In this document: one piece after another, positions 2,143 through 35,367 of the stretch | How the letters are laid out: the number at the start of each line of letters is the position of its first letter | Position numbering within the stretch: position 1 is the stretch's first letter | Source of the DNA: Gemmatimonadota bacterium | GTDB lineage: Bacteria; Gemmatimonadota; Gemmatimonadetes; Longimicrobiales; Gaopeijiaceae | Assembly (NCBI GenBank): GCA_028873825.1 | Contig: JAPPNM010000088.1 | Coordinates: 1-36,944 of the forward strand | Length of the DNA stretch: 36,944 nucleotides | Direction of reading: 5' to 3' | Made by a program: the position numbers and the translations under genes | Notes under the pieces: generated by a model | What the model saw: the letters and a program-made list of their open reading frames with translations, nothing else | What the model was told of the DNA's origin: nothing | Database searches by the model: none

Positions 2143-2379
2143 TCAAGACGGGAAGGCTGCGCCACGCCGACCGGCGACCGGAGCCAAGCCTCGGTCGCCC
2201 GTCGGCGCTTCGCGGCTATCGAACAGTTCCGCCAGAAACGGATCCGTCGGCCGCCGGTCCTCGAACCAACGCACCAGTTCCTCTTGGGACATGTCCCGGA
2301 TCTCTGCGCTGATGCGGTCACGGGTACGGCGCGTCCACTTCACGCAGTCGAACGCCTTCTCTCCTGCCTCAGTCTTCAT
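2143..2379 (-). CDS. Small hypothetical protein between PIN domain and hsdS, possible antitoxin
   Basis: MKTEAGEKAFDCVKWTRRTRDRISAEIRDMSQEELVRWFEDRRPTDPFLAELF; overlaps the 3' end of the hsdM-PIN ORF. Confidence 0.55.
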   Translation of the reverse strand: MKTEAGEKAFDCVKWTRRTRDRISAEIRDMSQEELVRWFEDRRPTDPFLAELFDSREAPTGDRGLAPVAGRRGAAFPS

Positions 2380-2821
2380 TCTCAAGCTCCTTCGGGCTCC
2401 GGATCTCCACCGGAAGATACCCCATCCGGCGGTTCACGTCGGCGTATTGCCGGATCCGACTCAGGTTTACCATGTGGCGGAAGTTCCAGCTCGCCAGCAC
2501 GTCCACCCCGGACACGGTCGCGGCGGCGATGTGCTGGGCATCGGCGCGCATTCCCTTGCCGAGCGCTCCGCTCTCGACGTAGCGGTCCGCGAGTTCCCTG
2601 ATCTCGCCCGTGATGGCGACCACCTCCACGTTGTCGGCCCCCACGGCCCGGAGCACATCCCGGACCGCTTGGGGCGCACGTTCCAGTTCCTGAAGCGTAA
2701 CCGCCGACAAGACCAGGGTCACCTCGCCCCGCGCACACCGCTCCATCAGCCTCCGGGACGACTCCCGGAACTCGTCGTCCTCGCAGCCGCCGATCACGGA
2801 TGTGTCGGCGTAGACGCGCAT
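2369..2821 (-). other. PIN-like nuclease domain portion of the HsdM fusion
   Basis: Starts with its own ATG (2819-2821): MRVYADTSVIGGCEDDEFRESSRRLMERCARGEVTLVLSAVTLQELERAP...ADAQHIAAATVSGVDVLASWNFRHMVN. Confidence 0.8.
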
Positions 2822-4975
2822 CTTCGGGTAGACGGGAACCGGCTCACGCCCCGGCAATCCCTCCAGCAGTCCCTCCGCCTCGCGCTCGACGGCCGCGATC
2901 TCGGCCCGGATCTCATCAAGCGTCCGCATCGGCTCGGGCTTGTGGAAGTAACGATTGAAGCTGATCTCGTAGCCGGTCTTCACGCTCTTCGCGACGTACC
3001 AGGCGTCCCCGGCGTAGGGGAGCACCTCGCGCCGCAGGAACCCCTCGATCCCGTTCGCTTCCTTCAGAGGGATCTGCTCGGTGTCCCTGAGCGCCGTGTC
3101 CGGTTCGTATTCGACTACGCGAGTCTTCGGGCCATCGCGCGACTGGAACAGCCCCCGGATCGGGTCGGGCGCGGCACCTCGCCGCTGGACCTTCTTGACC
3201 ACCGGATCGCCCTCCTCGTCCCGCTCGGCCAGCGCGGTCTGCAACAACTTCCTGCGCTTGGCGGTGAGCTTGACGCGGCGACCGGACATGTCGGCCTTGA
3301 GCATGTCGAGAAAGGCGTTGAAGTCGAAGTGAGGCCCCCGGCCGAGCGTTTCGGCCACCCGCTCGACGGCATCCGCGAGTGGCTCCTCCCCGGCACCGCT
3401 GCACGTCTCGGAGAACGCGGCGCGTCGCTCGGGCGACAGGTCCACCTTCAGCCGGAGCGGTCGCTCGACCGTCACCTTCCAATACCCGAACTCCTCGTTG
3501 TCGAAGATCCTGCTCTCCTCCGACTGCTCGAAGTCGAGGAACCCCCGGCAGATCCGCTCGATGTTGTCTGGACCGAGTTCGCAGTTCTTCTGCCCCAGGT
3601 TCTTCCTGAGCGGACGGAACCACTTGGTTGCGTCGATCAACTGAACCTTGCCCCGCCGGTGCTCGGGCTTCCGGTTCGTGAGCACCCAGACGTAGGTGGC
3701 GATTCCCGTGTTGTAGAACATGTTGAGCGGCAGGGCGACGATGGCCTCCAGCCAGTCGCTCTCGATGATCCACCGCCGGATGTTGCTCTCGCCTTGGCCA
3801 GCCGAGCCGGTGAACAGCGAACTGCCGTTGTGGACCTCGGCGATCCGGCTGCCGAGCGGCGTGTCCCGCTTCATCTTCGAGAGCTTGTTGGCCAGAAAGA
3901 GCATCTGGCCGTCGCTGGATCGGGTGACCAGCGAGTATTCGGGATCGCCCGCGTGCTCGATCACGAAGCGCGGATCACGCATGTCCTTCTTGCCGCCCAT
4001 CCGTTCGAGGTCCGTCTTCCAACTCTTGCCGTACGGCGGGTTAGAGAGCATGAAGTCGAACTCCCGCGTCGGAAACGCATCGTTCGAAAGCGTCGAGTAC
4101 TCCGGGCCGCCCACGATGTTGTCGGCGGCCTCGCCCTCGCCCTTGAGTAGCAGGTCGGCCTTGCAGATCGCGTAGGTCTCGGCGTTGATCTCCTGACCCC
4201 AGAGGTGTGTGGACACCTGCTTCCCCCGCTCCTCCGCGAACCCATGCAGCACGTCCTCCGCCACGGTCAGCATCCCGCCGGTCCCGCACGCACCGTCGTA
4301 GAGCATGTAGGTGCCGGACTCGATCCGGTCGGCGATCGGCTCGAACACGAGCCTTGCCATAAGCGTCACGGCGTCGCGCGGGGTGAAGTGCTCGCCCGCC
4401 TCCTCGTTGTTCTCCTCGTTGAAGCGCCGGATCAGTTCCTCGAAGACCGTGCCCATGCCGTGGTTGTCGAGGCCGGCGTGACGGACCGTGCCATCGGTCT
4501 CCATCACCGGATCGGGACTGAGGTTGATCTCAGGCGATGTCAGCTTCTCGATCAGCGAACCCAAGGCATCCGCCCGGTCGAGGCGCGGGATCTGGTTGCG
4601 GAACTCGAAGTTGCGGAGGATGTCCTGGACGTTGGAAGAGAACCCGTCCAGATAGTCCGCGAAGTCGGCCCGGAGCTGCTGCCGTCCGGCCCGCGCCCGG
4701 AGGTCGCGGAGCGTGAACTGCGAGGTGTTGTGAAAGGCCTGTCCAGCCGCTTGCCGGAGCGCGGCGTCCTGGTTCGCGACTCCGGCGGCGTCCAGCGTGG
4801 CCTTCATGTCGAGGACGGCCCGCTTGGAGGGCTCCAGCACCGCGTCCAGCCGCCGGAGCACCGTCATCGGCAGGATCACGTCGCGGTACTTGCCGCGCAC
4901 GTAGACATCCCGGAGCACGTCGTCCGCGATGCCCCAGATGTAGTTGGCGATCCAGTTCAGGTTGGGTGCGGTCAT
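2369..4975 (-). CDS. hsdM: Type I R-M methyltransferase HsdM with C-terminal PIN-like domain fused in frame
   Basis: HsdM N-terminal region, DGACGTGGML, SNPPYGKSW motifs; ORF continues without stop into MRVYADTSVIGGCEDDEF...VLASWNFRHMVN. Confidence 0.95.
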   Translation of the reverse strand: MTAPNLNWIANYIWGIADDVLRDVYVRGKYRDVILPMTVLRRLDAVLEPSKRAVLDMKATLDAAGVANQDAALRQAAGQAFHNTSQFTLRDLRARAGRQQLRADFADYLDGFSSNVQDILRNFEFRNQIPRLDRADALGSLIEKLTSPEINLSPDPVMETDGTVRHAGLDNHGMGTVFEELIRRFNEENNEEAGEHFTPRDAVTLMARLVFEPIADRIESGTYMLYDGACGTGGMLTVAEDVLHGFAEERGKQVSTHLWGQEINAETYAICKADLLLKGEGEAADNIVGGPEYSTLSNDAFPTREFDFMLSNPPYGKSWKTDLERMGGKKDMRDPRFVIEHAGDPEYSLVTRSSDGQMLFLANKLSKMKRDTPLGSRIAEVHNGSSLFTGSAGQGESNIRRWIIESDWLEAIVALPLNMFYNTGIATYVWVLTNRKPEHRRGKVQLIDATKWFRPLRKNLGQKNCELGPDNIERICRGFLDFEQSEESRIFDNEEFGYWKVTVERPLRLKVDLSPERRAAFSETCSGAGEEPLADAVERVAETLGRGPHFDFNAFLDMLKADMSGRRVKLTAKRRKLLQTALAERDEEGDPVVKKVQRRGAAPDPIRGLFQSRDGPKTRVVEYEPDTALRDTEQIPLKEANGIEGFLRREVLPYAGDAWYVAKSVKTGYEISFNRYFHKPEPMRTLDEIRAEIAAVEREAEGLLEGLPGREPVPVYPKMRVYADTSVIGGCEDDEFRESSRRLMERCARGEVTLVLSAVTLQELERAPQAVRDVLRAVGADNVEVVAITGEIRELADRYVESGALGKGMRADAQHIAAATVSGVDVLASWNFRHMVNLSRIRQYADVNRRMGYLPVEIRSPKELENED

Positions 4976-9061: not shown

Positions 9062-9150
9062 GCCCCTACGATAGTCCTTTTTGTCGAAGGGGCATAGGCG
9101 CCGCCGCCGGTCGGTCGGGAGGGGACCGAAGGTGGAGAGGAGGGACCGAC

Positions 9151-9360
9151 GCACTGCACGCGCGACATACGCAGGACGGCGCCACGCCACGTAGGACAGA
9201 CATGACAACCGGAGTTGTCACTATGTAAGGTGAAGTGTACATCTCTTCGCCCCTTTGCCACGCTCGGTTCACGGCTCGTCCCGCATGCCCGCCTCGTTCG
9301 ATAAGGGCGACACGGTGTCACCCTTCGTTTCGGGAACTTCGCGGACGCCTGCCGCGAGCG
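9151..9360. repeat. Dispersed intergenic element, copy A
   Basis: CTGCACGCGCGACATACGCAGGACGG...TGACAACCGGAGTTGTCA...AAGGGCGACACGGTGTCACCCTT...GCGGACGCCTGCCGCGA. Confidence 0.85.
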
Positions 9361-9585
9361 ATCCTGCCACCTCCTCGCCTGTCTTCCCTTCCGTGCCCAA
9401 TATCGCGCCCGGGCCGCGCCAACCATGAAGATCCGTCGCTGGTATCGCATCGTGTCCGGTGGGGCTACCCTTCCTCTGGGACAGCAATGAGGATGAGTTG
9501 TTCGTCAGGCGGGGCCATCCGGTCCTTTGGGCAAGTCGAACTGAACTGAACCCACTACGCCGCAAGGAGCCAAGGGAGACGACCG

Positions 9586-12696: not shown

Positions 12697-13170
12697 TGAG
12701 GAGTGTACCGCATACCGGTACGCGTGTCAATCGCTGCCACCCCGCTCGCCGCCGAACCCGAAGCGCGTTCGCTGGACGACCGGGACTATGCGGCGGTCTG
12801 CTTCGAGTGACCCGGAGCCTCTGATGCCGAAAGACACGGAGCGGAACACCGAGCCAGTCCGGACCATTCGCCACACCGAGAGTGGCCATTCGGTCGATCG
12901 CGCGGAGCTGCTTCGCAGTGAGCGGGTTCGCAAGGTCATTTCCGAGGTCGCGGACAAGCTGAAGGTCACCCGGGCGGTGGAATCCCGGCGCACGACCTCG
13001 GAATCCACTTCGTAAAACGAATACAGATACAGCATCCGGCTCCATCTGGCCACAGCGGCAACGCTATCTGGGAATCCACGTGCCCACCGCTGCGCGGCCT
13101 ACCATGGACCGTCTGATCGTCACCCGTCCATCCCCATAACCGGCCTTGATCGTCTCTTGAACGCCCCTCC

Positions 13171-13420
13171 GAGCGAGCGCTGCACGCGCGACATACGCAG
13201 GACGGCACAACGCCACATATGACAAACATGACAACCGGAGTTGTCATTATGTAAGGTGAAGTGTACATCTCGTCGCTCCTTCGCCAGGTTCGGTTCACGG
13301 CTCGTCCCGCACGGCCGCCTCGTTCGATAAGGGTGACACCGTGTCACCCTTTGCTTCGGGAACCCCGTGGACGCCTGCCGCGACGAGCGGATCGACGGGG
13401 CAGGCGCCGATCCCACCGCC
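13171..13420. repeat. Dispersed intergenic element, copy B
   Basis: GAGCGAGCGCTGCACGCGCGACATACGCAGGACGG...TGACAACCGGAGTTGTCATTATGTAAGGTGAAGTGTACATC...AAGGGTGACACCGTGTCACCCTT. Confidence 0.88.
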
Positions 13421-13436
13421 GTGGACCCGGCATATG

Positions 13437-13625
13437 ACGCCACCGAGAGCCGAGATCCCACGCGGCTACTCCGTGGTTCGGGTCAGCGTGGACGACCATC
13501 ACGGCCGGACCGTGCCGGTCGGGTCGTCGCTTGGGACGCCACCGAGGCGTGGCACAGGCGGCGGTGGCTGGCGCGCGACGAGAAGGTAGGCGGCGCGGAC
13601 GCCCACACGGCGCGGACGCCGATGC
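13437..13625 (+). pseudogene. Fragment of the 33270-34121 gene family, 1-nt frameshift
   Basis: RGYSVVRVSVDDHHGRTVPVG / VVAWDATEAWHRRRWLARDEKVGG, split between two frames. Confidence 0.75.
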
Positions 13626-13819
13626 GGTGTCACCGGGGGATCCGGGTGTCGTCCCCGGACGGCGCCACCCGCCAAAGGAAGACGAGATGTCGGGACCCGT
13701 TCAGAAGCCGGGGGAGGAGCATGGCAGTCTCGCCATCCGGCCCTTCCTTGACGTGCACGGTAATGTTCACTACGATGTATACGGATTTGTCCATTCTGAC
13801 TCCTACAGAGGATCGAAAG

Positions 13820-18006: not shown

Positions 18007-18996
18007 ATGGCCAGCGCCGAACACCTCAAGGCACTACTGAGGTCGCACCTGGACGGCGACCACGACCGCTTCATGTCGGTCGCCATGCAGGTGGCCGCCC
18101 ACGAAGCGAGGCTGGGCCACGGCAAGCTGGCCACCGATCTGCGCGACATCGTCGATCAGGCGAAGAGCCGCAGCAACGCGAACTCGCCGGTCCCGATCGG
18201 CCGGCCGCGCGGAGAGCTCGCCGGCCTGCTCGAGGCTTCCTATCCCAGGTCGCGACTGGGAGACATGATCCTCGGGAAGACGCTCGCGGACCGGATCGGG
18301 CGCGTCATTCGCGGGCAGCGCCACGCCGGGCGGATTCTCGACCACGGCCTTTCCCCGAGGCGGAAGCTCCTGTTCGTCGGCCCTCCGGGCACCGGGAAGA
18401 CGCTCGCCGCTTCGGTCCTGGCGGGCGAACTCGGTCTTCCTCTGCTTCAGGTCCGGCTCGACGGCCTCATCACGAGATTCATGGGCGAGACCGCGGCCAA
18501 GCTGCGGCAGATCTTCGACGCCACCGGCCGGACCAGGGGGGTGTACTTCTTCGACGAGTTCGACGCGATCGGCTCGGAACGCGCGATCGCCAACGACGCG
18601 GGCGAGATCCGGCGGGTGCTGAACAGCTTCCTCCGGATGATCGAGCAGGACCGATCCCACAGCATGGTGACGGCGGCGACCAACCACCCCGGGATGCTCG
18701 ACCGCGCGCTCTTCCGCCGATTCGACGACATACTCCGCTTCGAGCTGCCCGACGAGTCGCAGATCGCCGAGCTGCTGAAGATGCGGCTCGCCGGGACGGC
18801 GCGGCGCCCGGTCGCGTGGAGCGACCTTGCGAGCCGGGCCGCCGGGCTGAGCTACGCGGAGGTGGCGCGGGCCGCGGACGACGTGATCAAGGACGCGCTG
18901 GTTTCTGGCCGGGCCCGGGTCGGGCAGGAGGAGATTCGTGCGACGCTCGAGGAATTGAAGGCGGCCGGGGAGCGGTTCGGGAGGGCGCGGGCGTAG
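18007..18996 (+). CDS. AAA+ ATPase, IetA-like (ATPase of ATPase/subtilase pair), apparently intact
   Basis: FVGPPGTGKT Walker A, GVYFFDEFDAIGSER Walker B, ATNHPGMLDRALFRRFD sensor/arginine finger. Confidence 0.92.
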   Translation: MASAEHLKALLRSHLDGDHDRFMSVAMQVAAHEARLGHGKLATDLRDIVDQAKSRSNANSPVPIGRPRGELAGLLEASYPRSRLGDMILGKTLADRIGRVIRGQRHAGRILDHGLSPRRKLLFVGPPGTGKTLAASVLAGELGLPLLQVRLDGLITRFMGETAAKLRQIFDATGRTRGVYFFDEFDAIGSERAIANDAGEIRRVLNSFLRMIEQDRSHSMVTAATNHPGMLDRALFRRFDDILRFELPDESQIAELLKMRLAGTARRPVAWSDLASRAAGLSYAEVARAADDVIKDALVSGRARVGQEEIRATLEELKAAGERFGRARA

Positions 18997-19014
18997 TCGG
19001 CGCTCGATCTCGAC

Positions 19015-19080
19015 ATGGCCAACGGGGGCGAGGGGAAGGATGCACACTTCATGCTCGAAGGCGTCACTGAGACTGAGACG
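19015..19080 (+). pseudogene. N-terminal stub of S8 subtilase (IetS-like) fused in frame to sce7726 ORF
   Basis: MANGGEGKDAHFMLEGVTETE parallels MANGGEGRNRHFILQGVTATEAYRYPGGG at 35024, then diverges. Confidence 0.75.
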
Positions 19081-19158
19081 TGCGGTTTCGTTCAGGACGG
19101 AGGTTCGATCGTTGCCGCCGTCAGCCCGGGTTCAGCCCGGGAGTCCGTAGACCGGGAC

Positions 19159-19728
19159 ATGGGGGTGCGGCCGGTACTTCGGAGGTATCTGGACCAACAG
19201 CAGTTGGCTTGCCCGGACACGGTACTGATCGAGGAATTGGGGCTGTGCCAAGGGCTGGCTCGGATCGACCTCGCGACGGTTAGCAGCGTACTTCATGGCT
19301 ACGAGATCAAGTCGAATCGGGACCGGTTGAGTCGATTGGCCTCCCAAGCCGAGACGTACAGCCGCGTCTTCGACCGCGTCACCCTTGTTGTTGGCACCAA
19401 GCATATCAAAGCTGCCCTCAAGCTCGTTCCCCGGTGGTGGGGTCTGCTCCTAGTTCGCGGTGATGTCGAGGGAGTCTTGCTCGATCCGTTCCGTCCTGCC
19501 GATGAGAATCCCGGCCAGGATCCGCGTGCGCTGGTCGAGCTGCTTTGGCGCGACGAGGCCTTGGAACTACTTGCGCGCCACAATGCTGCGGGGGGTGTGC
19601 GCAGCAAACCGAGACCGGCGGTGTGGGACCGCGTGTGCGAGGCACTCGATCTGACTCAGATCCGGTCAGCGGTGCGGTACCGGCTCAGGACCCGGGCAGA
19701 GACCTCAACGTCCGCATCACTTCGGTGA
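19159..19728 (+). CDS. sce7726 family protein
   Basis: EELGLCQGLARIDLATVSSVLHGYEIKSNRDRLSRLASQAETYSRVFDRVTLVVGTKHIKAALKLVPRWWGLLLV. Confidence 0.85.
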   Translation: MGVRPVLRRYLDQQQLACPDTVLIEELGLCQGLARIDLATVSSVLHGYEIKSNRDRLSRLASQAETYSRVFDRVTLVVGTKHIKAALKLVPRWWGLLLVRGDVEGVLLDPFRPADENPGQDPRALVELLWRDEALELLARHNAAGGVRSKPRPAVWDRVCEALDLTQIRSAVRYRLRTRAETSTSASLR

Positions 19729-20749
19729 TGTGATGCACGGTTCCGATTCGTCGCCACACCTCTGGTGATCCGAGGCGCGGTTGGCCGTCCGCGGCTCGTT
19801 TGATCGAGGCGCAACCCTCGCAATGGGCTTCCCCGCGGAAGTGATCACAGAGATACCCGTAAGCCAACCGCTTCGCCAACTGGGGGAATTGCATACGAGC
19901 CGGGTGTCTGCGAGTGCCCTTCCCCTTGATCAAGAGCCAGCTGTCGGCAAGCGCGTACCGCACGCTGGCAGACACCTGCATCATCCGAGGATCGAATCCC
20001 TCGACTCCCGAAGGATGCTGGATTGCACAGTCGCTGTATGTGGGAACGCGCGAAAACCGGCCGCCGTCGCGCAGGCGCTTCCAGGCCAACCACTCGACAC
20101 GCGTAACCACGGCGTGGGAGTCGCGGTCGACCACGCCCATGCTCTTTGGAAACGCTGAGGCCGAGACGATGAGCGTTCTCCATCGATTGCGGTCGGGAAC
20201 ATCCCCGAGGAACTGACTGGCGAGCCGGGCTACTCCTTCTGTGACCATGTCCTCCACCGGGCCCAAGTCCAGGATGAGGTCGGCATCCTCGCGCTCGATC
20301 CCGTGGCGAGCCATGAAGGCAGATAGGCCGGATGAGAGGTCGCCGGCCTCGAAATCGTCGCGAGTTAGCCGGATGGCCAATCCACGCTCCTGATTGCGCA
20401 CCGCCGCGGAAGCGTCCGCCCTTTTCGTGATGCCGGTTACGGGAATGAACGGGATTCCAGCGTCAGCGGCCCTATTGAAGATCTGTTCAGCTGCCGATGG
20501 ACCCTGGCGTGCCAGTTCTCGAGCATCCAGGAAGCACCGGGGGTACCATCGCAGGCTCTTGGCCAAGTCCTTGAACGCTGTATCCAAGTGACTGCGTAGG
20601 GTGGGCTTGTCCTGGCGCTTGCGCCACTCCACGATCTCAAGGAGCGGGGTGACATGTTCTCGAAGGGTCAGGGCGACGAGCTGAAGGGCACTCTTCTCCG
20701 CGCGCTTGACCTTCAGAACCGGAACGTAGTGCCTGGAACCGAATGTCAT
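19685..20749 (-). CDS. Beta family protein (T4 beta-protein-like)
   Basis: YVPVLKVKRAEKSALQLVALTLREHVTPLLEIVEW...ADLILDLGPVED...; neighbour of sce7726 gene. Confidence 0.75.
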   Translation of the reverse strand: MTFGSRHYVPVLKVKRAEKSALQLVALTLREHVTPLLEIVEWRKRQDKPTLRSHLDTAFKDLAKSLRWYPRCFLDARELARQGPSAAEQIFNRAADAGIPFIPVTGITKRADASAAVRNQERGLAIRLTRDDFEAGDLSSGLSAFMARHGIEREDADLILDLGPVEDMVTEGVARLASQFLGDVPDRNRWRTLIVSASAFPKSMGVVDRDSHAVVTRVEWLAWKRLRDGGRFSRVPTYSDCAIQHPSGVEGFDPRMMQVSASVRYALADSWLLIKGKGTRRHPARMQFPQLAKRLAYGYLCDHFRGEAHCEGCASIKRAADGQPRLGSPEVWRRIGTVHHITEVMRTLRSLPGS

Positions 20750-21354
20750 TACTTCTCCTCATACGCGCCCCAGAGGACCAAGGGCGCAAGCTCGTTCTCT
20801 CGGTCGCGAAGATACGAACGCAACCCCTGCTCCGGGTCCTGTACGCTAGGAGAGAAACAGATCCGCATGACGGTGTCAGCCTGCCGAACCGGTTCGATTC
20901 TGTCTCGCACTGCTGCGGCTCCGAGTTCACGGCAAAGCGCAAGCAGCACGGCTTCGACGAGGACGATCCGGCCTGAAAGGGCTTCCGGGAATCGGTCCAG
21001 ACGCTTGAGGGCGCGGAGTGCTCTCAGGTCGCCTGACAAGACCGGAAGCTGAAGATCCGCAGCCGTCGCAAAGAGGATGGCTTCTCCCGGATCGATGGCG
21101 GGAATGGGGGCAAGCTGTTCCAGCCATGGAGCGGGTGCATGCCGGACGGGCGGCATGCTCTCAGCCAGGGGGATCAAGCGCTCACAAACGGCCGCTCCGT
21201 ATGTCCGGTGCAGTCCCCCACGCCGTAGCATGTAGGGGAGCGCGGGGAGCCGACGACACTCCTGGAGTCTCACGCCAAGGCACTCAGCAGCATCCGACAG
21301 AAGGTCGGACGCCGCCAGTTTGCAGAACGCGTCGCTATCAACCAGCAGGCGCAT
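20749..21354 (-). CDS. PIN-like (VapC-like) domain protein
   Basis: MRLLVDSDAFCKLAASDLL...IDPGEAILFATAADLQLPVLSGDLRALRAL; stop/start overlap TAATG with the beta gene. Confidence 0.7.
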   Translation of the reverse strand: MRLLVDSDAFCKLAASDLLSDAAECLGVRLQECRRLPALPYMLRRGGLHRTYGAAVCERLIPLAESMPPVRHAPAPWLEQLAPIPAIDPGEAILFATAADLQLPVLSGDLRALRALKRLDRFPEALSGRIVLVEAVLLALCRELGAAAVRDRIEPVRQADTVMRICFSPSVQDPEQGLRSYLRDRENELAPLVLWGAYEEK

Positions 21355-22357
21355 CGTAAGTCACGGACGCAGGAACGACCACCCTCATGAGCTCTCGGTC
21401 GCTCAGAGAAGCGCCCTCGACGTCTACGAACATCCTGAAGTACTTCCTGAGGGTTCGGCCGGCCCCGGTCGACAGGTACAACGCCTTGGTCGCCATGGTG
21501 GCGGTCGCATAGTCACCGCTGGTACGCGCCCACGTAAAGATGATCGCCCCCGCATCAATGCCTGTTTGCTGCTCTATCTCTACCGCGCGATTTGCCAACG
21601 TCCGGAAGTCATCGAAAGCACCGGGGTCGAGTTCAGGAATCGTGTGTTCGCCCATGACCACCCGCATCGCGTACCGGTCCGCGAATCTCTCCATCTCGTC
21701 ATCCGAGACGATCTCCTCATCCTTGTCGACCACCGGTGCACCAGGCATGCAGTCTCCCCTTGCGATGTGGCCGGCCTCATGCGAGATGCGAAACGCTGCG
21801 CGACCGGGCTCATCATGCCTGTGTCCCAACACGACCACGGGCCGGTCCTCTACCACTGCAGCGAGCCCCTGGAAGCTCGGGGCCGGTAGCAGCTGGGTAG
21901 GAACAACGGGAATCCCGCGAGCCCAAAGGTCCTTGAGAATGGTGTCCAGATCCACGCTGCCGCCCAAGTCCGGGAGTTCCTGGCGCCATGCGAGTCCGTT
22001 CGGAGGAGGCGGCGCAGGAGCAGGCACCGATTCGTTCAGGTTCCGCACCACGGCTCCCGCGATCCCCGTCGCGGCGTGGATCGCCGGCGTCAGGCGGTCA
22101 CGGTCGACATCACGGACGCACCGAAGCCGGGCCTTCGGGTAGCCCGGAGCAGCCAGCATTGATTCCGGGTCGGTCACCACCGACATGGGGACTCCCAGGA
22201 AACGGCCTACCCGGATCTCGATTTCGGGGAGGAGGTCCGGCTCGCTCCGACAACTCTGATCCCACCAATCGGGCAGGATCGCCCGACGGACGAATTCCCT
22301 CTCGAAGCCGGCTTCACGGAGCCGACGAGTCAGCGTCGATATGGATCGCTTTGCCAC
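21338..22357 (-). CDS. ImmA/IrrE family metallo-endopeptidase
   Basis: FRISHEAGHIARGD zinc motif; GTG start with AGGGAGG upstream. Confidence 0.88.
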   Translation of the reverse strand: MAKRSISTLTRRLREAGFEREFVRRAILPDWWDQSCRSEPDLLPEIEIRVGRFLGVPMSVVTDPESMLAAPGYPKARLRCVRDVDRDRLTPAIHAATGIAGAVVRNLNESVPAPAPPPPNGLAWRQELPDLGGSVDLDTILKDLWARGIPVVPTQLLPAPSFQGLAAVVEDRPVVVLGHRHDEPGRAAFRISHEAGHIARGDCMPGAPVVDKDEEIVSDDEMERFADRYAMRVVMGEHTIPELDPGAFDDFRTLANRAVEIEQQTGIDAGAIIFTWARTSGDYATATMATKALYLSTGAGRTLRKYFRMFVDVEGASLSDRELMRVVVPASVTYDAPAG

Positions 22358-22640: not shown

Positions 22641-22906
22641 TCGGCCACCGGACTCCAATGCTCCGGGGTCAGGCTACGCGGCCGAGGCAGGTGGCAGCTC
22701 CCGGTCTCCCATTCAAGCACGGTGGGAGCCGCATCTCCGACGCTTCCACCGGTCCGGGTGCCGGCGCGCTGATGCTCGTAGTAGTCCGAGTACTCCGAGA
22801 ACGAGAGGGAGCGACGGGCGGCGGCACTTCGTCCCGGAACCGCAGGTCCCGGGCTGACCTCCGAAACGGGCGGACTCTTGAAGATCCGTCGTCGGCGCCG
22901 GTGCGC

Positions 22907-23354
22907 ATGATCCTCGGGAAGACGCTCGCGAATCGGATCGGGCGCGTCATTCGCGAGCAGCGCCACGCCGGGCGGATTCTCGACCACGGCCTTTCCCCGA
23001 GGCGGAAGCTCCTGTTCGTCGGCCCTCCGGGCACCGGGAAGACGCTCGCCGCTTCGGTCCTGGCGGGCGAACTCGGTCTTCCTCTGCTTCAGGTCCGGCT
23101 CGACGGCCTCATCACGAGATTCATGGGCGAGACCGCGGCCAAGCTGCGGCAGATCTTCGACGCCACCGGCCGGACCAGGGGGGTGTACTTCTTCGACGAG
23201 TTCGACGCGATCGGCTCGGAACGCGCGGTCGTCAACGACGTGGGCGAGATTCGGCGGGTGCTGAACAGCTTCCTCCAGATGATCGAGCAGGACCGCTCCC
23301 ACAGCATGGTGACGGCGGCGACCAACCATCCCGGCATGCTCGACCGCGCGCTCT
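22907..23354 (+). pseudogene. Internal fragment of IetA-like AAA+ ATPase (copy 2)
   Basis: MILGKTLANRIGRVIREQRHAGRILDHGLSPRRKLLFVGPPGTGKT...ATNHPGMLDRAL then abrupt loss of homology. Confidence 0.93.
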
Positions 23355-26088: not shown

Positions 26089-26216
26089 CCTGGAGCTCCT
26101 TCGGTCGGGTTGACACTGGCTTCACCGGCGTCGGCTTGAGCCGGGCTCCGCACGTTCCATCCATTCTCTCCACAATCGCGCGAAGCGTCCACCATTCGAG
26201 ATCGCCGAACGCCGCT

Positions 26217-26562
26217 CCGAGCGAGCGCTGCACGCGCGACATACGCAGGACGGCGCCACGCCACGTAGGACGACATGACAACCGGAGTTGTCATTATGTA
26301 AGGTGAAGTGTACATCTCGTCGCTCCTTCGCCAGGTTCGGTTCACGGCTCGTCCCGCACGGCCGCCTCGTTCGATAAGGGCGACACGGTGTCACCCTTCT
26401 TTTCGGGAACTTCGCGGACGCCTGCCGCGAAGAGTGGATCGACGAGGCTGGCGTGGATCCCGCCGCCGTGAGAGGTCGCTCGAGCATCCGGACGGATGCC
26501 CGCGACGCATCGGCTCGCAGGAAGCACCGGGCGGGAATCGCCTCAATCCGACGCAGGAGGCC
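26217..26562. repeat. Dispersed intergenic element, copy C
   Basis: Same core as copies A/B/D including both palindromes (26274-26291, 26376-26398). Confidence 0.88.
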
Positions 26563-26565
26563 GGC

Positions 26566-26801
26566 ATGGACCGGAATCTGACGCCACCGAGTACGGAGAT
26601 CCTACGCGGCTACTCCGTGGTCCGGGTCAGCATGGACGACCATCATGGCCCGGATCGTGCCAGTCGGGGTCGTTGCCTGGGATGCCGCCGAGGCGTGGCA
26701 CGGGTGGTGGTGGCTGGCACGCGACGAGAAGGTAGACGGCGTGGACGCCACGGCGCGGACGCTGATACGGATCACCCGGGACCAGATCCGGCGGTGGGCC
26801 G
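26566..26801 (+). pseudogene. 5' part of 33270-34121 family gene, frameshifted, interrupted at 26802
   Basis: MDRNLTPPSTEILRGYSVVRVSMDDHHG / RIVPVGVVAWDAAEAWHGWWWLARDEKVDGVDATARTLIRITRDQIRRWA. Confidence 0.82.
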
Positions 26802-26837
26802 GCGAGTTTCCCGCCGACGAGGCTCGCAAGCTCGCCC

Positions 26838-27257
26838 TCGCCCCTGGGGCCTCGATTTGGAGCGCGACATCATCACGAGGAATCGCCTTCTCAAGAAGAA
26901 GGGAGCCAGCGTAGAACTTCTGGGCCCGCCAGGCCGCCGAGGACGCGGCCGCGTGGATCCAGACTCGGATGTCTTCCACCAGTGGATCGACGCCACGCAC
27001 ACTGCCATGCTGCTGTACGACGAGGAAGGGTCGCGGGCCACGGAGATGTTCCTCAAGCGGAGCCGACTGCTCGAGGAGCCACCTTCAAGTCCCTGCTCCG
27101 TGCCCTCGTCAACGCGATTCCTCGGGTGAAGAAGAACGGCAAGCTCATTCGGCCCGAAGCGAGATCCCTTGACGGCCTGCGCCTCGCGTTCTTCGCGGAG
27201 ATCGGGGCGCCGCCGGACCCCGAACCCGTCGTGGAGCAGGGTGACCTGCGGATCTGA
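26838..27257 (+). pseudogene. C-terminal fragment resembling DUF1156-type DNA methylase, frameshifted
   Basis: DVFHQWIDATHTAMLLYDEEGSRATEMFLKRSRLLEE / TFKSLLRALVNAIPRVKKNGKLIRPEARSLDGLRLAFFAEIGAPPDPEP. Confidence 0.55.
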
Positions 27258-27377
27258 GCTTGACGGCGCCGTCTGGCTGCCCGACGTTGAGGTGCCCCGA
27301 GCCGCCGCTCGTGCCGTCTTGCGTATCTGGAGCCAAACCGCCGAGCACCGATCACACCAGTGAAATGGAGAGACGAG

Positions 27378-28370
27378 ATGGTCTACCCCGCACCTCGCAA
27401 CCGTCCCGGAGAGTCAAGTTGGCGGTCCCGCCCGGTCAAGTACTGGGACGGCGACTGGGACACAATCAAGAGTCTCATCCCAGTCTTCGACCTCCGCCCA
27501 TTCACGATCGTACCGGAAGTGGCCGATCGAGCGCCGTTCGAGCCGGGGTTGGAGGCGCTCGCCAACCCGTTTCTTCAAGTCGTCATGCGGCGTCCAGGAC
27601 CTGACTCGGACTTGCCCATGCCGGTTGGCGTTGTGTCGCGCACCTACACGCTCGTCCAGTACCTCACAATCGCCGCACTCTGTCGTGACGTACTCCTACA
27701 GGCTGGGATCGGACCCGGTGGACTGAAGTATGAACTTGCGTTGTCGGAATTAGGCGAATGGATGAACCTCCGGATTCAGCTCCCGGAATCCTACAAGTTC
27801 GTGGACAAACGCGACGAAGAATCTCATCTGAGACTGGAGTGCTTCAACTCGGTTGACGGCTCGTCGCCGCTCGAACTCTTCTTCCGGTGGTATCGCTTGG
27901 TGTGTGAGAACGGCCAAGTCACCGAAGACAAGATCAAAATCAGGAGGCGTCACGGGCAGGGGTTGCGACTTTACCCGATTCGATCAGCCCTCCAGAAAGC
28001 GTTGAACTCTGTGAGGTCGGATCGAGAGAGGATGCGGAAATGGGAACAGGTGAAGATTGGTGACATCGAGGCTTGGACGTGGGAACATGTCGCACCCAAA
28101 TGGAACAAAACGGCTGCAGCGAGAGTCTTTTACATCTGCACAGAAGGCCGCGACGTAGAGATCGCTCACCCATTCAGGAAGCCTTCCAAGTACCTGCCCC
28201 GGGTTCCTGGTTCTCCAGAGCATGCGGAGAGCATCTACGATGTCTCTCAGGCCTTGTCATTCGTCGCGACCAGGCGAAGAGACGTTGAGGAACGTGTCAA
28301 ATGGCAGGAGGACATCCCTCCGCTGCTTGAGGAGCTCCCGGCCACCAGGGAAGTTGAGTTGTGGGAATGA
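27378..28370 (+). CDS. DUF932 domain-containing protein
   Basis: PVGVVSRTYTLVQYLTIAALCRDVLLQAGI...LECFNSVDGSSPLELFFRWYRLVCENGQV. Confidence 0.75.
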   Translation: MVYPAPRNRPGESSWRSRPVKYWDGDWDTIKSLIPVFDLRPFTIVPEVADRAPFEPGLEALANPFLQVVMRRPGPDSDLPMPVGVVSRTYTLVQYLTIAALCRDVLLQAGIGPGGLKYELALSELGEWMNLRIQLPESYKFVDKRDEESHLRLECFNSVDGSSPLELFFRWYRLVCENGQVTEDKIKIRRRHGQGLRLYPIRSALQKALNSVRSDRERMRKWEQVKIGDIEAWTWEHVAPKWNKTAAARVFYICTEGRDVEIAHPFRKPSKYLPRVPGSPEHAESIYDVSQALSFVATRRRDVEERVKWQEDIPPLLEELPATREVELWE

Positions 28371-28875
28371 TGAAGGTGCAGTCAGCCGTCGACCGGGTCC
28401 TACGGGGTTGTGCGGGCGGGCCGCGTGTACAATTCGCCGAGCTCACCCCAGCCCGGGCCCCTCGGGACTCGCAGGGCGAGGCGATGGTTTCCGTTTCGCT
28501 GCACTGGTCCTCCTCGGGTTTACAGGTCGGTTTACACTGGGGGTGCTCGGGGGAGGTGGATTGGTTGGTTCTGGGGGCAAGTAGGAGTCTGCTTTCCGCT
28601 CTCGACACGGAGGCGGCGTCGGCCAGGCTAGTGACCTCGTCCGGTGCGCCGTGGAGGTCTCGCCGCAGGAAGAATCGAAGGCCCTTGCCGGCACGTGGGG
28701 AGTGTCGTCCTCGTCTCCTTCTCGTGGTGCGCTCTCCCGCAGATGGGCAACGCTTGCGGTTGACGCCTCGGCCGCCTCGAGCAACATTGGCGACCCAGAC
28801 CACGCGCCCAGGCCCTCACGAGCAGTCAGGGAACCGGGAGCCGTTTCTCGAAGCGTCTGCATGAGAGGAGTTGCG

Positions 28876-29793
28876 ATGACAGCAAACTTGGGCGAACTGA
28901 AGAGCGTAGACGTGCGCAAAGCGTGGCGGTATGAGGCACACAACTTCACGCCGTGGCTCGCGGACAACCTGGAGTGGCTGGGCGAAGCCGTGGGCATTCC
29001 AAACTTGACGCTTGTGGACCAGGAAGCGCAGGTCGGGCCATTCCGGGCAGACATCATTGCGTCCGCAGCGAACGGGGACAGCGTACTCATCGAGAATCAG
29101 TTGGAGGCTGCCAACCTTCAGCATCTCGGCCAGGTGCTGGCATATTTGGCGGGACTCGACAGCAAGATCGTAATCTGGGTTGCAACCGAATTCCACGAAT
29201 CCTACTTATCGGCCATCCGCTGGCTCAACGAACACACGCCAGACCATATCGCGTTCTTCGCGGTTCGCGTGGGGCTCGTCCAGATCGAGGATTCCAAGCT
29301 CGCACCCGTGCTGGAAGTACTGGAACGGCCCAGCGAATGGACACCGCCCCCCGTCCCCGGTGAAGCGAAGGAAAGCGAGAGGACACGCTTCCGACGCGAG
29401 TTCTGGGAACACTACCGATCGACGAGACCAGATGCGGGCATACGCGAGGGGTTCAAGGGGCTCTATCACTACCACACCATTAGGCAACCGAGCGGTCTGA
29501 GGGTGGCTCAGGTCGTCAATTTCGACGGGGTCCTGGTGTACCTGGTAGCCAAGAGAGGAACCGACGAGGACTTGGTGAAGGCGAAGTGCCACCACTACGC
29601 CAACGCGCTTGAGGAGCATGGTATCTCAGTACGCTGGCCCAGTTGGGCAGGCACCTATAAGCACTTCGATACCCGGGATCCCGACAATTGGGACGACATG
29701 GTCCAGTGGCTCGATAAGCGCCGCGAAGTGTACGAACGCGTCTTGCGAAATGTCGTCCCGCCCGAAGAGATGGAAACTCCGGCAGAGGAATGA
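28876..29793 (+). CDS. PD-(D/E)XK-like nuclease with DUF4268-type C-terminus
   Basis: FRADIIASAANGDSVLIENQLEAANLQHLGQVLAYLAGLDSKIVIWVATEF; C-terminal FWEHYRSTRPDAG...WPSWAGTYKHFDTRDPDNWDDMVQWLDKRREVYERV. Confidence 0.82.
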   Translation: MTANLGELKSVDVRKAWRYEAHNFTPWLADNLEWLGEAVGIPNLTLVDQEAQVGPFRADIIASAANGDSVLIENQLEAANLQHLGQVLAYLAGLDSKIVIWVATEFHESYLSAIRWLNEHTPDHIAFFAVRVGLVQIEDSKLAPVLEVLERPSEWTPPPVPGEAKESERTRFRREFWEHYRSTRPDAGIREGFKGLYHYHTIRQPSGLRVAQVVNFDGVLVYLVAKRGTDEDLVKAKCHHYANALEEHGISVRWPSWAGTYKHFDTRDPDNWDDMVQWLDKRREVYERVLRNVVPPEEMETPAEE

Positions 29794-29826
29794 GGGTTCC
29801 CAACGCTTGGGTTGGAATCTGCACAA

Positions 29827-29990
29827 ATCCGGCGGTGGGCCGACCCTCGGAAAGTCCCTTACGAGCCCGGTTCGGCGCGACCGGCGAGCGCCCGCTTCTG
29901 GAGGGCCGTTTCCGAGATTCTCACCTCCGGCGTTCTCCTCGACCCTCCCAGGGCGATGGCGCCGATGGCCGACCGCTCGCGCCGGAATGC
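29827..29990 (+). pseudogene. Middle part of 33270-34121 family gene, continuation of the 26566-26801 fragment
   Basis: QIRRWADPRKVPYEPGSARPASARFWRAVSEILTSGVLLDPPRAMAPMAD versus QIRRWAKNRRVPYEPGSVEPTSDRFWRAASEILTTGVRLDRPKAMDPMAE. Confidence 0.85.
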
Positions 29991-32540: not shown

Positions 32541-32686
32541 TCCTGTTCGGGGTCATCCGGGTGGGCCGCGCGCCTCGCCCATGAAAACGAATACAGATAC
32601 AGCATCCGGCTCCATCTGGCCACTGGGGGGGACAGGAGGGCGAGCGTCCGCCATCCCGGGATCGCCTCTCGAACTCCCCCGCCGAG

Positions 32687-33024
32687 CGAACGCTGCACCG
32701 CGACATACGCGGGAGGGCACCGCACCACATAGGACAGGAATGACAATCAGAGTTGTCATTATGTAAAGTGAAGTGTACATCTCGTCGCTCCTTCGCCAGG
32801 TTCGGTTCACGGCTCGTCCCGCACGGCAGCCTCGTTCGATAAGGGTGACACCGTGTCACCCTTTGCTTCGGGAACTCCGTGGACGCCTGCCGCGACGAGT
32901 GGATCGACGGGGCTGGCGCCGATCCCGCCGTCGTGAGAGGTCCCTCGAACATCGGATGGATGCGCCCGACACATCGGCTCGCAGGTAGCACCGGGTGGGA
33001 ATCGCCTCGAGCGACGCAAGGAGG
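32687..33024. repeat. Dispersed intergenic element, copy D
   Basis: TGACAATCAGAGTTGTCA (32741-32758), AAGGGTGACACCGTGTCACCCTT (32841-32863); extended homology to copy C through GGGAATCGCCTC. Confidence 0.88.
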
Positions 33025-33269
33025 TCGGCGGCGTGGTCGCAACGGCGCGGACGCTCAATGCGGACCCCGGCAACGTGCTCCTCGCCCACAGCGCCTCGGG
33101 GATCGCGTGGGGGACTTTCTGGATGCCAGTCATCACGAATGGCTCGATCGGGCATCGCTGGCTCCCGACGAACTGGAAGGATTCCTCGAACACCGGGTAG
33201 ACACCCTGGAGACCTTGGCGCAGAAGGACCATTGGCTGGGAGTCGCTTCCGTTGACACAGGAGGGCAGC

Positions 33270-34121
33270 ATGTACTCTCAATCGGATAGTCGGATTCGAC
33301 ATGGGTACTCCGTGATCCGGGTCAGTCTGGACGACCATCGCGACCGCACCGTCCCGGTCGGTGTCGTCGCATGGCAGACCCCGAAGCCCTGGTACGGATG
33401 GCGGTGGCTGGAACGCGACGAAAGGGTGCGCGGCGTCGATCCGGCGACTCGAAGGCTCATGCGCGTGGCGAGGGGTCAGATCCGGCGCTGGGCGAAGAAC
33501 CGTAGGGTACCCTACGAGCCGGGATCCGTGGAACCGACAAGCGACCGCTTCTGGAGGGCCGCATCCGAGATCCTCACGACCGGCGTCCGACTCGACCGCC
33601 CCAAGGCGATGGATCCGATGGCTGAACCCGGCGAGGAGATCGAGGCGCTTTTCGAGGCGGTGGTTCAGCCCGGGCAGACGGGCAGGCGGAGGACGGAGCG
33701 CATCGACTCAGCGCTCAAGCGGGCCCTCGGCGAGTGGGCGGAACGCATTCCCCCGAAGGGGAGCGTGTCCGCGTTCGGCGGGGCCAGCGAGCAGGTTCAG
33801 AGAGGCTTGGAGACCAACCGGGGCGTCCTGCTGGTCGAAGGCGTCAACCTGGCCGCTCGGAGAGCCCGTAGGGAGGCGGATGCCCTCGTCTCGCGCTTCA
33901 TGAGAATCCAGGCAGCGCACCCGAACAGGAGCATTAGAGTGATCGTGGGCTACTCGTCTTCTCCCGGTGGCCTGAACGGCGAGGCTCACATGCGCGAGTG
34001 GATTCGTGAGAAGGTGACCGAAGAGGTGTTCGACATGGTTGCCCAGAACGCGGAGTTCCGGGAGGCGGCCTCGGAGGCGTGGAGGCGGATCACGTCGGAG
34101 CCGCAGATGCGGTTGACCTAA
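33270..34121 (+). CDS. Hypothetical protein, full-length member of the repeated family (possibly DUF3037-like)
   Basis: ATG preceded by GGAGGG; HGYSVIRVSLDDHRDRTVPVGVVAWQTPKPWYGWRWLERDERVRGVD... Confidence 0.75.
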   Translation: MYSQSDSRIRHGYSVIRVSLDDHRDRTVPVGVVAWQTPKPWYGWRWLERDERVRGVDPATRRLMRVARGQIRRWAKNRRVPYEPGSVEPTSDRFWRAASEILTTGVRLDRPKAMDPMAEPGEEIEALFEAVVQPGQTGRRRTERIDSALKRALGEWAERIPPKGSVSAFGGASEQVQRGLETNRGVLLVEGVNLAARRARREADALVSRFMRIQAAHPNRSIRVIVGYSSSPGGLNGEAHMREWIREKVTEEVFDMVAQNAEFREAASEAWRRITSEPQMRLT

Positions 34122-34274
34122 TGCTGCGGTGGCAAGCTGGCCACCGAACTGCGCGACATCGTCGATCAGGCGAAGAGCCGCGGCGGCGCGAACTCGCCGG
34201 TCCCGATCGGCCGGCCGCGCGGAGAGCTCGCCGGCCTGCTCGAGGCTTCCTATCCCAGGTCGCGACTGGGAGAC

Positions 34275-35075
34275 ATGATCCTCGGGAAGACGCTCGCGGA
34301 CCGGATCGGGCGCGTCATTCGCGGGCAGCGCCACGCCGGGCGGATTCTCGACCACGGCCTTTCCCCGAGGCGGAAGCTCCTGTTCGTCGGCCCTCCGGGC
34401 ACCGGGAAGACGCTCGCCGCTTCGGTCCTGGCGGGCGAACTCGGTCTTCCTCTGCTTCAGGTCCGGCTCGACGGCCTCATCACGAGATTCATGGGCAAGA
34501 CCGCGGCCAAGCTGCGGCAGATCTTCGACGCCACCGGCAGGACCAGGGGGGCGTACTTCTTCGACGAGTTCGACGCGATCGGCTCGGAACGCGCGATCGC
34601 CGACGACGCGGGCGAGATCCGGCGGGTGCTGAACAGCTTCCTCCAGATGATCGAGCAGGACCGCTCCCACAGCATGGTGATGGCGGCGACCAACCATCCC
34701 GGCATGCTCGACCGCGCGCTCTTCCGCCGATTCGACGACATACTCCGCTTCGAGATGCCCGACGAGTCGCAGATCGCCGAGCTGCTGAAGATGCGGCTCG
34801 CCGGGACGGCGCGGGGGCCGGTCGCGTGGAGCGACCTCGCGAGCCGGGCCGCCGGGCTAAGCTACGCGGAGGTGGCGCGGGCCGCGGACGACGTGATCGA
34901 GGACGCGCTGGTTTCTGGCCGGGCCCGGGTTCGACAGGAGGAAATCGGTGCGATGCTTGAGGAGCTGAAGGCGACCGGGGAGCGGTTCGGGAGGCGCGGG
35001 CGTAGTCGGCGCTCGATCTCGACATGGCCAACGGGGGCGAGGGGAGGAATCGGCACTTCATTCTCCAGGGTGTGA
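34275..35075 (+). pseudogene. IetA-like AAA+ ATPase copy 3, N-terminus missing, C-terminal frameshift
   Basis: Near-identical to 18268-18996 at DNA level; homology begins about 34131; GGAGGGCGCG to GGAGGCGCG shifts the end. Confidence 0.9.
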
Positions 35076-35367
35076 CGGCGACCGAGGCGTACCGCTATCC
35101 GGGAGGCGGCGGCGATGGTCCCAGTGTTCCCCAACGGAATCGGCCCGAACACGCCGCGGCTTTACGAGGGCAGCTGGACGCCGGGATGGAAGAGGGATTG
35201 GGGCTTCAGGTCGAGTTCGAGAGTTTCCCCGATGTGTGCAGCTGGCCTTCGAGAGCCTCGCACGGGATCGCTCCGGAATCGAGCTGCTGAACGTCTGCCA
35301 CGAGGACAAGACTACCCTGGCGACCGGCTTCGCGCCCGACGGCAAGCTCGGTCAATTGAGAGCGTAG
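35024..35367 (+). pseudogene. N-terminal remnant of S8 subtilase (IetS-like), frameshifted, catalytic domain absent
   Basis: MANGGEGRNRHFILQGVTATEAYRYPGGGGDGPSVPQRNRPEHAAALRGQLDA...LGLQVEFESFPDV / LAFESLARDRSGIELLNVCHEDKTTLATGFAPDGKLGQLRA*. Confidence 0.8.

Follow-up and report, generated by a model that had tools for sequence, protein, structure and literature searches.

The HipA-DUF3037 defence system (HipAD/DS-6/PDC-M66) is supported by experiments, and in HipAD the DUF3037 protein is the antitoxin which neutralises the HipA kinase (PMC12548924, PMC13092281). The split gene described here resembles the antitoxin half of such a HipAD-type pair more than anything else. It is located in a window of 36,944 nucleotides (the whole stretch of DNA that was analysed), which is an entire contig of an uncultured Gemmatimonadota bacterium and which is dense in defence genes and, as a self-BLAST showed, in partial duplications, including pieces of HigBA. 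The likeness to HipAD comes from genomes G001 and G014, where an intact homologue lies directly 3' of a gene that belongs to one family in both cases; the G014 copy of this neighbouring gene gave a weak match to PDC-M66A (HipA-type, E=0.0019). In contrast to HipAD, the intact copy in the window matches Pfam DUF3037 weakly (E=0.017, 15.7 bits, under the cut-off of 22.6), and the protein is therefore named "DUF3037-like" here. PADLOC gave no match for any of the DUF3037-like proteins. Also, the partner gene survives in the window only as a remnant, and the single intact DUF3037-like gene is accompanied by broken copies.

The left (5') half of the split gene was identified by alignment at 26566..26801 (+). 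It comprises codons ~1-74 and carries a frameshift near 26650. The right half, likewise delimited by alignment, is a remnant at 29824..29982 (+) covering ~codons 64-119 of 280, with its end at ~29969-29982. Both halves are pseudogene pieces. As yardstick we used the uninterrupted paralogue at 33279..34121 (+; 280 aa; homologues in G001, G014, G007 and G021), whose identity is 73% with the left and 79% with the right half. A preliminary description of this DNA had proposed a gene interrupted at a 16-bp direct repeat, with a full-length copy at 33270-34121. The interruption at the repeat stands as the best reading and the full-length copy is indeed intact, but both halves of the split gene are decayed and the copy begins at 33279, not at 33270.

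The two halves complement one another and lie at similar distances from each of five homologous genes (left/right identity 73.1/79.3, 68.5/75.2, 73.4/73.8, 71.8/71.9 and 69.0/72.8%). Within the genus, only 5 of 22 other genomes have homologues of the interrupted gene; a search of 126 genomes of the family gave none outside the genus. The preliminary description had suggested comparing the junctions with an uninterrupted gene in a relative; this search was run and neither an uninterrupted orthologue nor an empty site was found in these limited collections (genus and 126 family genomes). Within the window at least four pieces of the DUF3037-like gene family are present. One of them, a further 5' fragment at 13416..13645 (+), shares 89% identity with the left half; it ends at GATCCGG, which is the left end of the same 16-bp site. 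The leader-linked fragments ending at 13645, 26801 and 33070 all stop within 22 bp (26779, 26791 and 26801 in left-half coordinates). This common stop may go back to a truncation in their ancestor or to a hotspot of breakage; that two other fragments end so close to the same site is unexplained by a single insertion.

In alignments with the five homologous genes, homology of the left half is lost at 26801/26802 and homology of the right half resumes at 29824-29827, so that the overlap equals the 16-bp repeat or, if one mismatch is allowed, 19 bp (CA[G/A]ATCC...). Exact copies of the 16-mer ATCCGGCGGTGGGCCG are found at 26786-26801 (+) and 29827-29842 (+). It occurs twice in the whole genome (3,308,417 bases), both times at the junctions of the split gene, and in single copy in each of two other species within the genus. 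When the flanks were joined by script they read ...RITRDQIRRWADPRKVPYEPGSARPASARFWRAVSEIL... in a single frame, giving one read-through protein segment. The exact repeat, the rejoining of the flanks in one frame and the position of the boundaries at the repeat had all been proposed in the preliminary description, and all three hold. Controls with matched base composition contained ~0.1 16-bp direct repeats (<=5 kb apart) per window vs 20 in the real window, nearly all of which lie within recognisable duplications. Between homologous genes, identical 16-mers make up only 2.4% of windows, which speaks for one gene. On the other side, an exact 17-mer is common to distinct paralogues in the window (29892-29908 vs 33545), so that identity over 16-17 bp alone is no proof of one gene.

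The left joint is a 6-bp microhomology, GGGCCG, which forms the last 6 bp of the left 16-bp copy and at the same time the start of homology to a methylase gene (26796). A distant intact methylase reads CGGGCCGAGGAG at the matching joint position. Beginning at 26796, the DNA shares 73% identity with the 3' end of a gene that is intact in G008 and encodes a 960-aa DUF1156 methylase, which itself scores HmaB at E=1e-86. The segment 26796..27257 (+) is, by this DNA homology, a C-terminal remnant of a DUF1156 (HmaB-like) DNA methylase, with protein pieces at 26848-27081 and 27075-27254, a frameshift near 27080 and a stop at 27255-27257. The likeness to Hma extends to the C-terminus of the methylase; in contrast to a DUF1156 methylase with its catalytic domain, ~136 residues in two frames are left here, and neither HmaC nor a helicase was seen beside the remnant.

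Downstream lies an intact DUF932 gene (27378..28370, +, 330 aa; Pfam PF06067 E=2.4e-11, 44.3 bits over a cut-off of 23). In Zwartia hollandica (L083) the operon order is HmaB-DUF932-HmaC, where HmaC is a DUF499 ATPase, and because DUF932 is placed between the two Hma genes there, methylase remnant and DUF932 gene in the window are, by analogy, probably the tail of one operon. DUF932 would then probably be a leftover accessory of a methylase operon. Relatives of the DUF932 protein were found at 32 loci, many of them in other phyla; among the relatives of this genome they occur in G043 and G075 (family and order relatives). About 10 of the 32 loci have a defence gene adjoining or near. These neighbours are HmaB/HmaC (L083), HmaC (L081), a type I methylase (L080, L093), a type I restriction subunit (L074), PglX (L078), PglZ (L075), HEC-07 (L073, probably L082) and a DpdF-like helicase (L101). 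As a lead and not an established enrichment, the subfamily (L071-L101) recurs in several phyla next to Hma, BREX and type I restriction genes, and also next to HEC-07 and DpdF-like ones. The protein shares the DUF932 domain with the phage-plasmid-like family TIGR03299, to which it gave a weak match far under the cut-off, but it belongs to the subfamily adjoining these defence genes. Plasmid and phage collections contained no match to it, and a Foldseek search with its AF2 model (pLDDT 84.2) found no match in the PDB. Among the papers searched, none joined DUF932 with DUF1156, and the ten that mention DUF932 give it no defence role in their titles or abstracts. We tentatively suggest, at somewhat less than even odds, that the DUF932 protein here belongs to an as yet undescribed family of accessories to defence operons that are methyltransferase-based or related to these (Hma, BREX, type I restriction, HEC-07, DpdF-like helicases) and that occur across several phyla. 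Its fold would lack a solved counterpart, and in this window the gene would have outlived a destroyed Hma-like operon intact. The presence of the subfamily beside unrelated defence genes makes it testable as a common accessory factor.

The second intact gene of the insert (28876..29793, +, 305 aa) encodes a DUF4268-type PD-(D/E)XK nuclease. The PADLOC model PDC-S11, a single-gene candidate, matches at full length (residues 1-294, E=3.1e-73), and the nuclease motif D59...E73-N-Q75 is invariant in 15 sequences. Its AF2 model (pLDDT 78.5) matched EndoMS/NucS (EndoMS E=8e-5) and SfsA in Foldseek. By full-length match and intact motif it is an ordinary member of PDC-S11 with no notable difference. 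Relatives are present in 11 other genomes. The protein probably acts alone as a single-gene nuclease, and the two intact genes of the insert probably function independently of each other. The ~500 bp between them contain further debris. An antisense remnant of a TIGR04255-family gene at 28494..28698 (-) is scrambled and frameshifted, with a promoter/start piece at 28494-28581 and codons ~142-179 at 28585-28698; several other genomes in the genus carry pieces of such a gene. The spacer 28371-28875 was also considered as a promoter or an IS end and rejected, being debris of the TIGR04255 gene.

The 3-kb segment is accordingly a mosaic of two intact genes (DUF932, DUF4268) and two decayed remnants (methylase, TIGR04255). 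All three protein identities given in the preliminary description were borne out, by the Pfam score for DUF932, by the PDC-S11 match, the invariant motif and the PD-(D/E)XK fold for DUF4268, and by DNA homology for the C-terminal DUF1156 methylase fragment, with the correction that the latter is frameshifted. Its term "cassette" is not supported. A discrete mobile defence cassette, be it transposon-like, integron-like or integrase-borne, with the 16 bp as target duplication or attachment core, would be a new mobile defence unit. The exact direct repeats flanking both ends are what one expects of a mobile element, and the two intact genes are of lower G+C (57.7 and 59.2%) than the window mean of 64.5%. 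Yet the segment contains neither a transposase nor a recombinase, since its intact ORFs are DUF932 and PDC-S11 and the rest are gene remnants. There are no terminal inverted repeats, the ends sharing an inverted match of 8 bp only, and no second integration site, as the 16-mer is present at no other locus of the 3.3-Mb genome. A hairpin after 29793 does not, by eye, fit the core of an integron attC site. The segment begins within a broken methylase gene and contains debris of a type found in the genus. The search for the DUF932+DUF4268 pair in other contexts, which the preliminary description had called for, found it nowhere else: DUF4268 is near none of the 32 other DUF932 loci (flanks up to 4 kb per side), and in the relatives, too, the two genes occur apart. 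No relative in the limited collections carries the 3-kb segment as a unit. The separate occurrence of the two genes, the lack of a recombinase, of terminal inverted repeats and of another 16-mer, and the start in a broken gene fit a capture event better than a defined unit, and we regard a cassette as very unlikely.

Our analysis favours a single DUF3037-like gene split by ~3 kb of captured defence-island DNA through illegitimate joining and now a decayed pseudogene, for which we estimate a probability of roughly 0.6. This figure, like our placing of the two-copy scenario below, is a judgement and not a computed value. The insert contents of mixed age and origin (frameshifted, intact and scrambled genes) argue for such a capture, as do the many other partial duplications in the window. 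That the two halves were once one gene is suggested by sequence with about the same confidence. They could instead derive from two different copies of the family, the left one fused to the methylase remnant and the right one being a separate 3' fragment past PDC-S11, with the common 16 bp simply conserved coding sequence. The number of family pieces in the window speaks for this, as do the fragment at 13416-13645 ending at the same place, the 17-mer exactly shared by distinct paralogues and the decay of both halves. Such a scenario, however, requires that two independent breaks in a gene of 840 bp fall within ~20 bp of each other, and the halves have identical third-codon positions that are matched by none of the five homologues; we consider it unlikely. 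An assembly artefact, in which the contig misjoins repeats of a duplicated region, would be conceivable, since the assembly is fragmented (183 contigs) and this contig has several duplications (200-960 bp, 86-97% identity). But the 16-bp repeat alone is too short for a misjoin, and the right-junction DNA and the two insert genes are each present once in the genome, which makes an artefact highly improbable.

Under the preferred scenario of one gene split by captured DNA, ~3 kb of DNA from a defence island would have broken into the DUF3037-like gene at its QIRRWA codons. The incoming DNA would have started partway through a DUF1156 methylase gene, and its left end would have joined the target at the microhomology GGGCCG. 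About 16 bp of target would have been duplicated to both sides, either by illegitimate end joining plus fill-in or by a template switch returning slightly upstream. The locus looks like an ordinary defence-island rearrangement and not like a neat mobile cassette, and it provides a readable example of defence-island turnover, in which intact newcomers stand alongside broken genes and a joint at a microhomology.

The split gene and its insert are one more product of the turnover of this island. A leader block is present in four direct copies (9144-9361, 13148-13423, 26180-26565 and 32640-33029), identified by self-BLAST, alignment and a search of the own genome. The copies precede different genes, and the one at 26180..26565 (+) lies upstream of the left half. 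The block is a promoter-like stretch with an inverted repeat, TGACAACCGGAGTTGTCA, and a remnant of a ParB-like ORF, where "ParB-like" is a reading from the sequence and not a database match; a 72-bp part of it (26250-26320) is also found upstream of the homologous gene in G021. The palindrome AAGGGYGACACSGTGTCACCCTT was considered as an operator or terminator and rejected, since ParB-like ORFs throughout the genus have it as coding sequence (KGDTVSPLS). A 23-bp near-perfect palindrome in this coding sequence, AAGGGTGACACNGTGTCACCCTT, is conserved at the DNA level across the genus. It was found in G018 (8 copies), G000, G003, G007, G013 and G021 and in the window at 9303, 13329, 26376 and 32841, and it was absent from the reversed control.

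Elsewhere in the window an IetA-like ATPase is represented by one full gene and two partial copies (18007-18996, 22906-23354, 34131-35090) at 95-97% DNA identity; as a duplicated stretch in the self-BLAST, the first of these spans 18121-19081. An IetS protease to go with them was not noticed. At 19685-22357 (-), a 201-aa gene separates a B and a C gene that are PD-Lambda-2-like. At 2369-4975 (-) the window encodes a type I HsdM with a long C-terminal extension, which by eye resembles a PIN-type domain.
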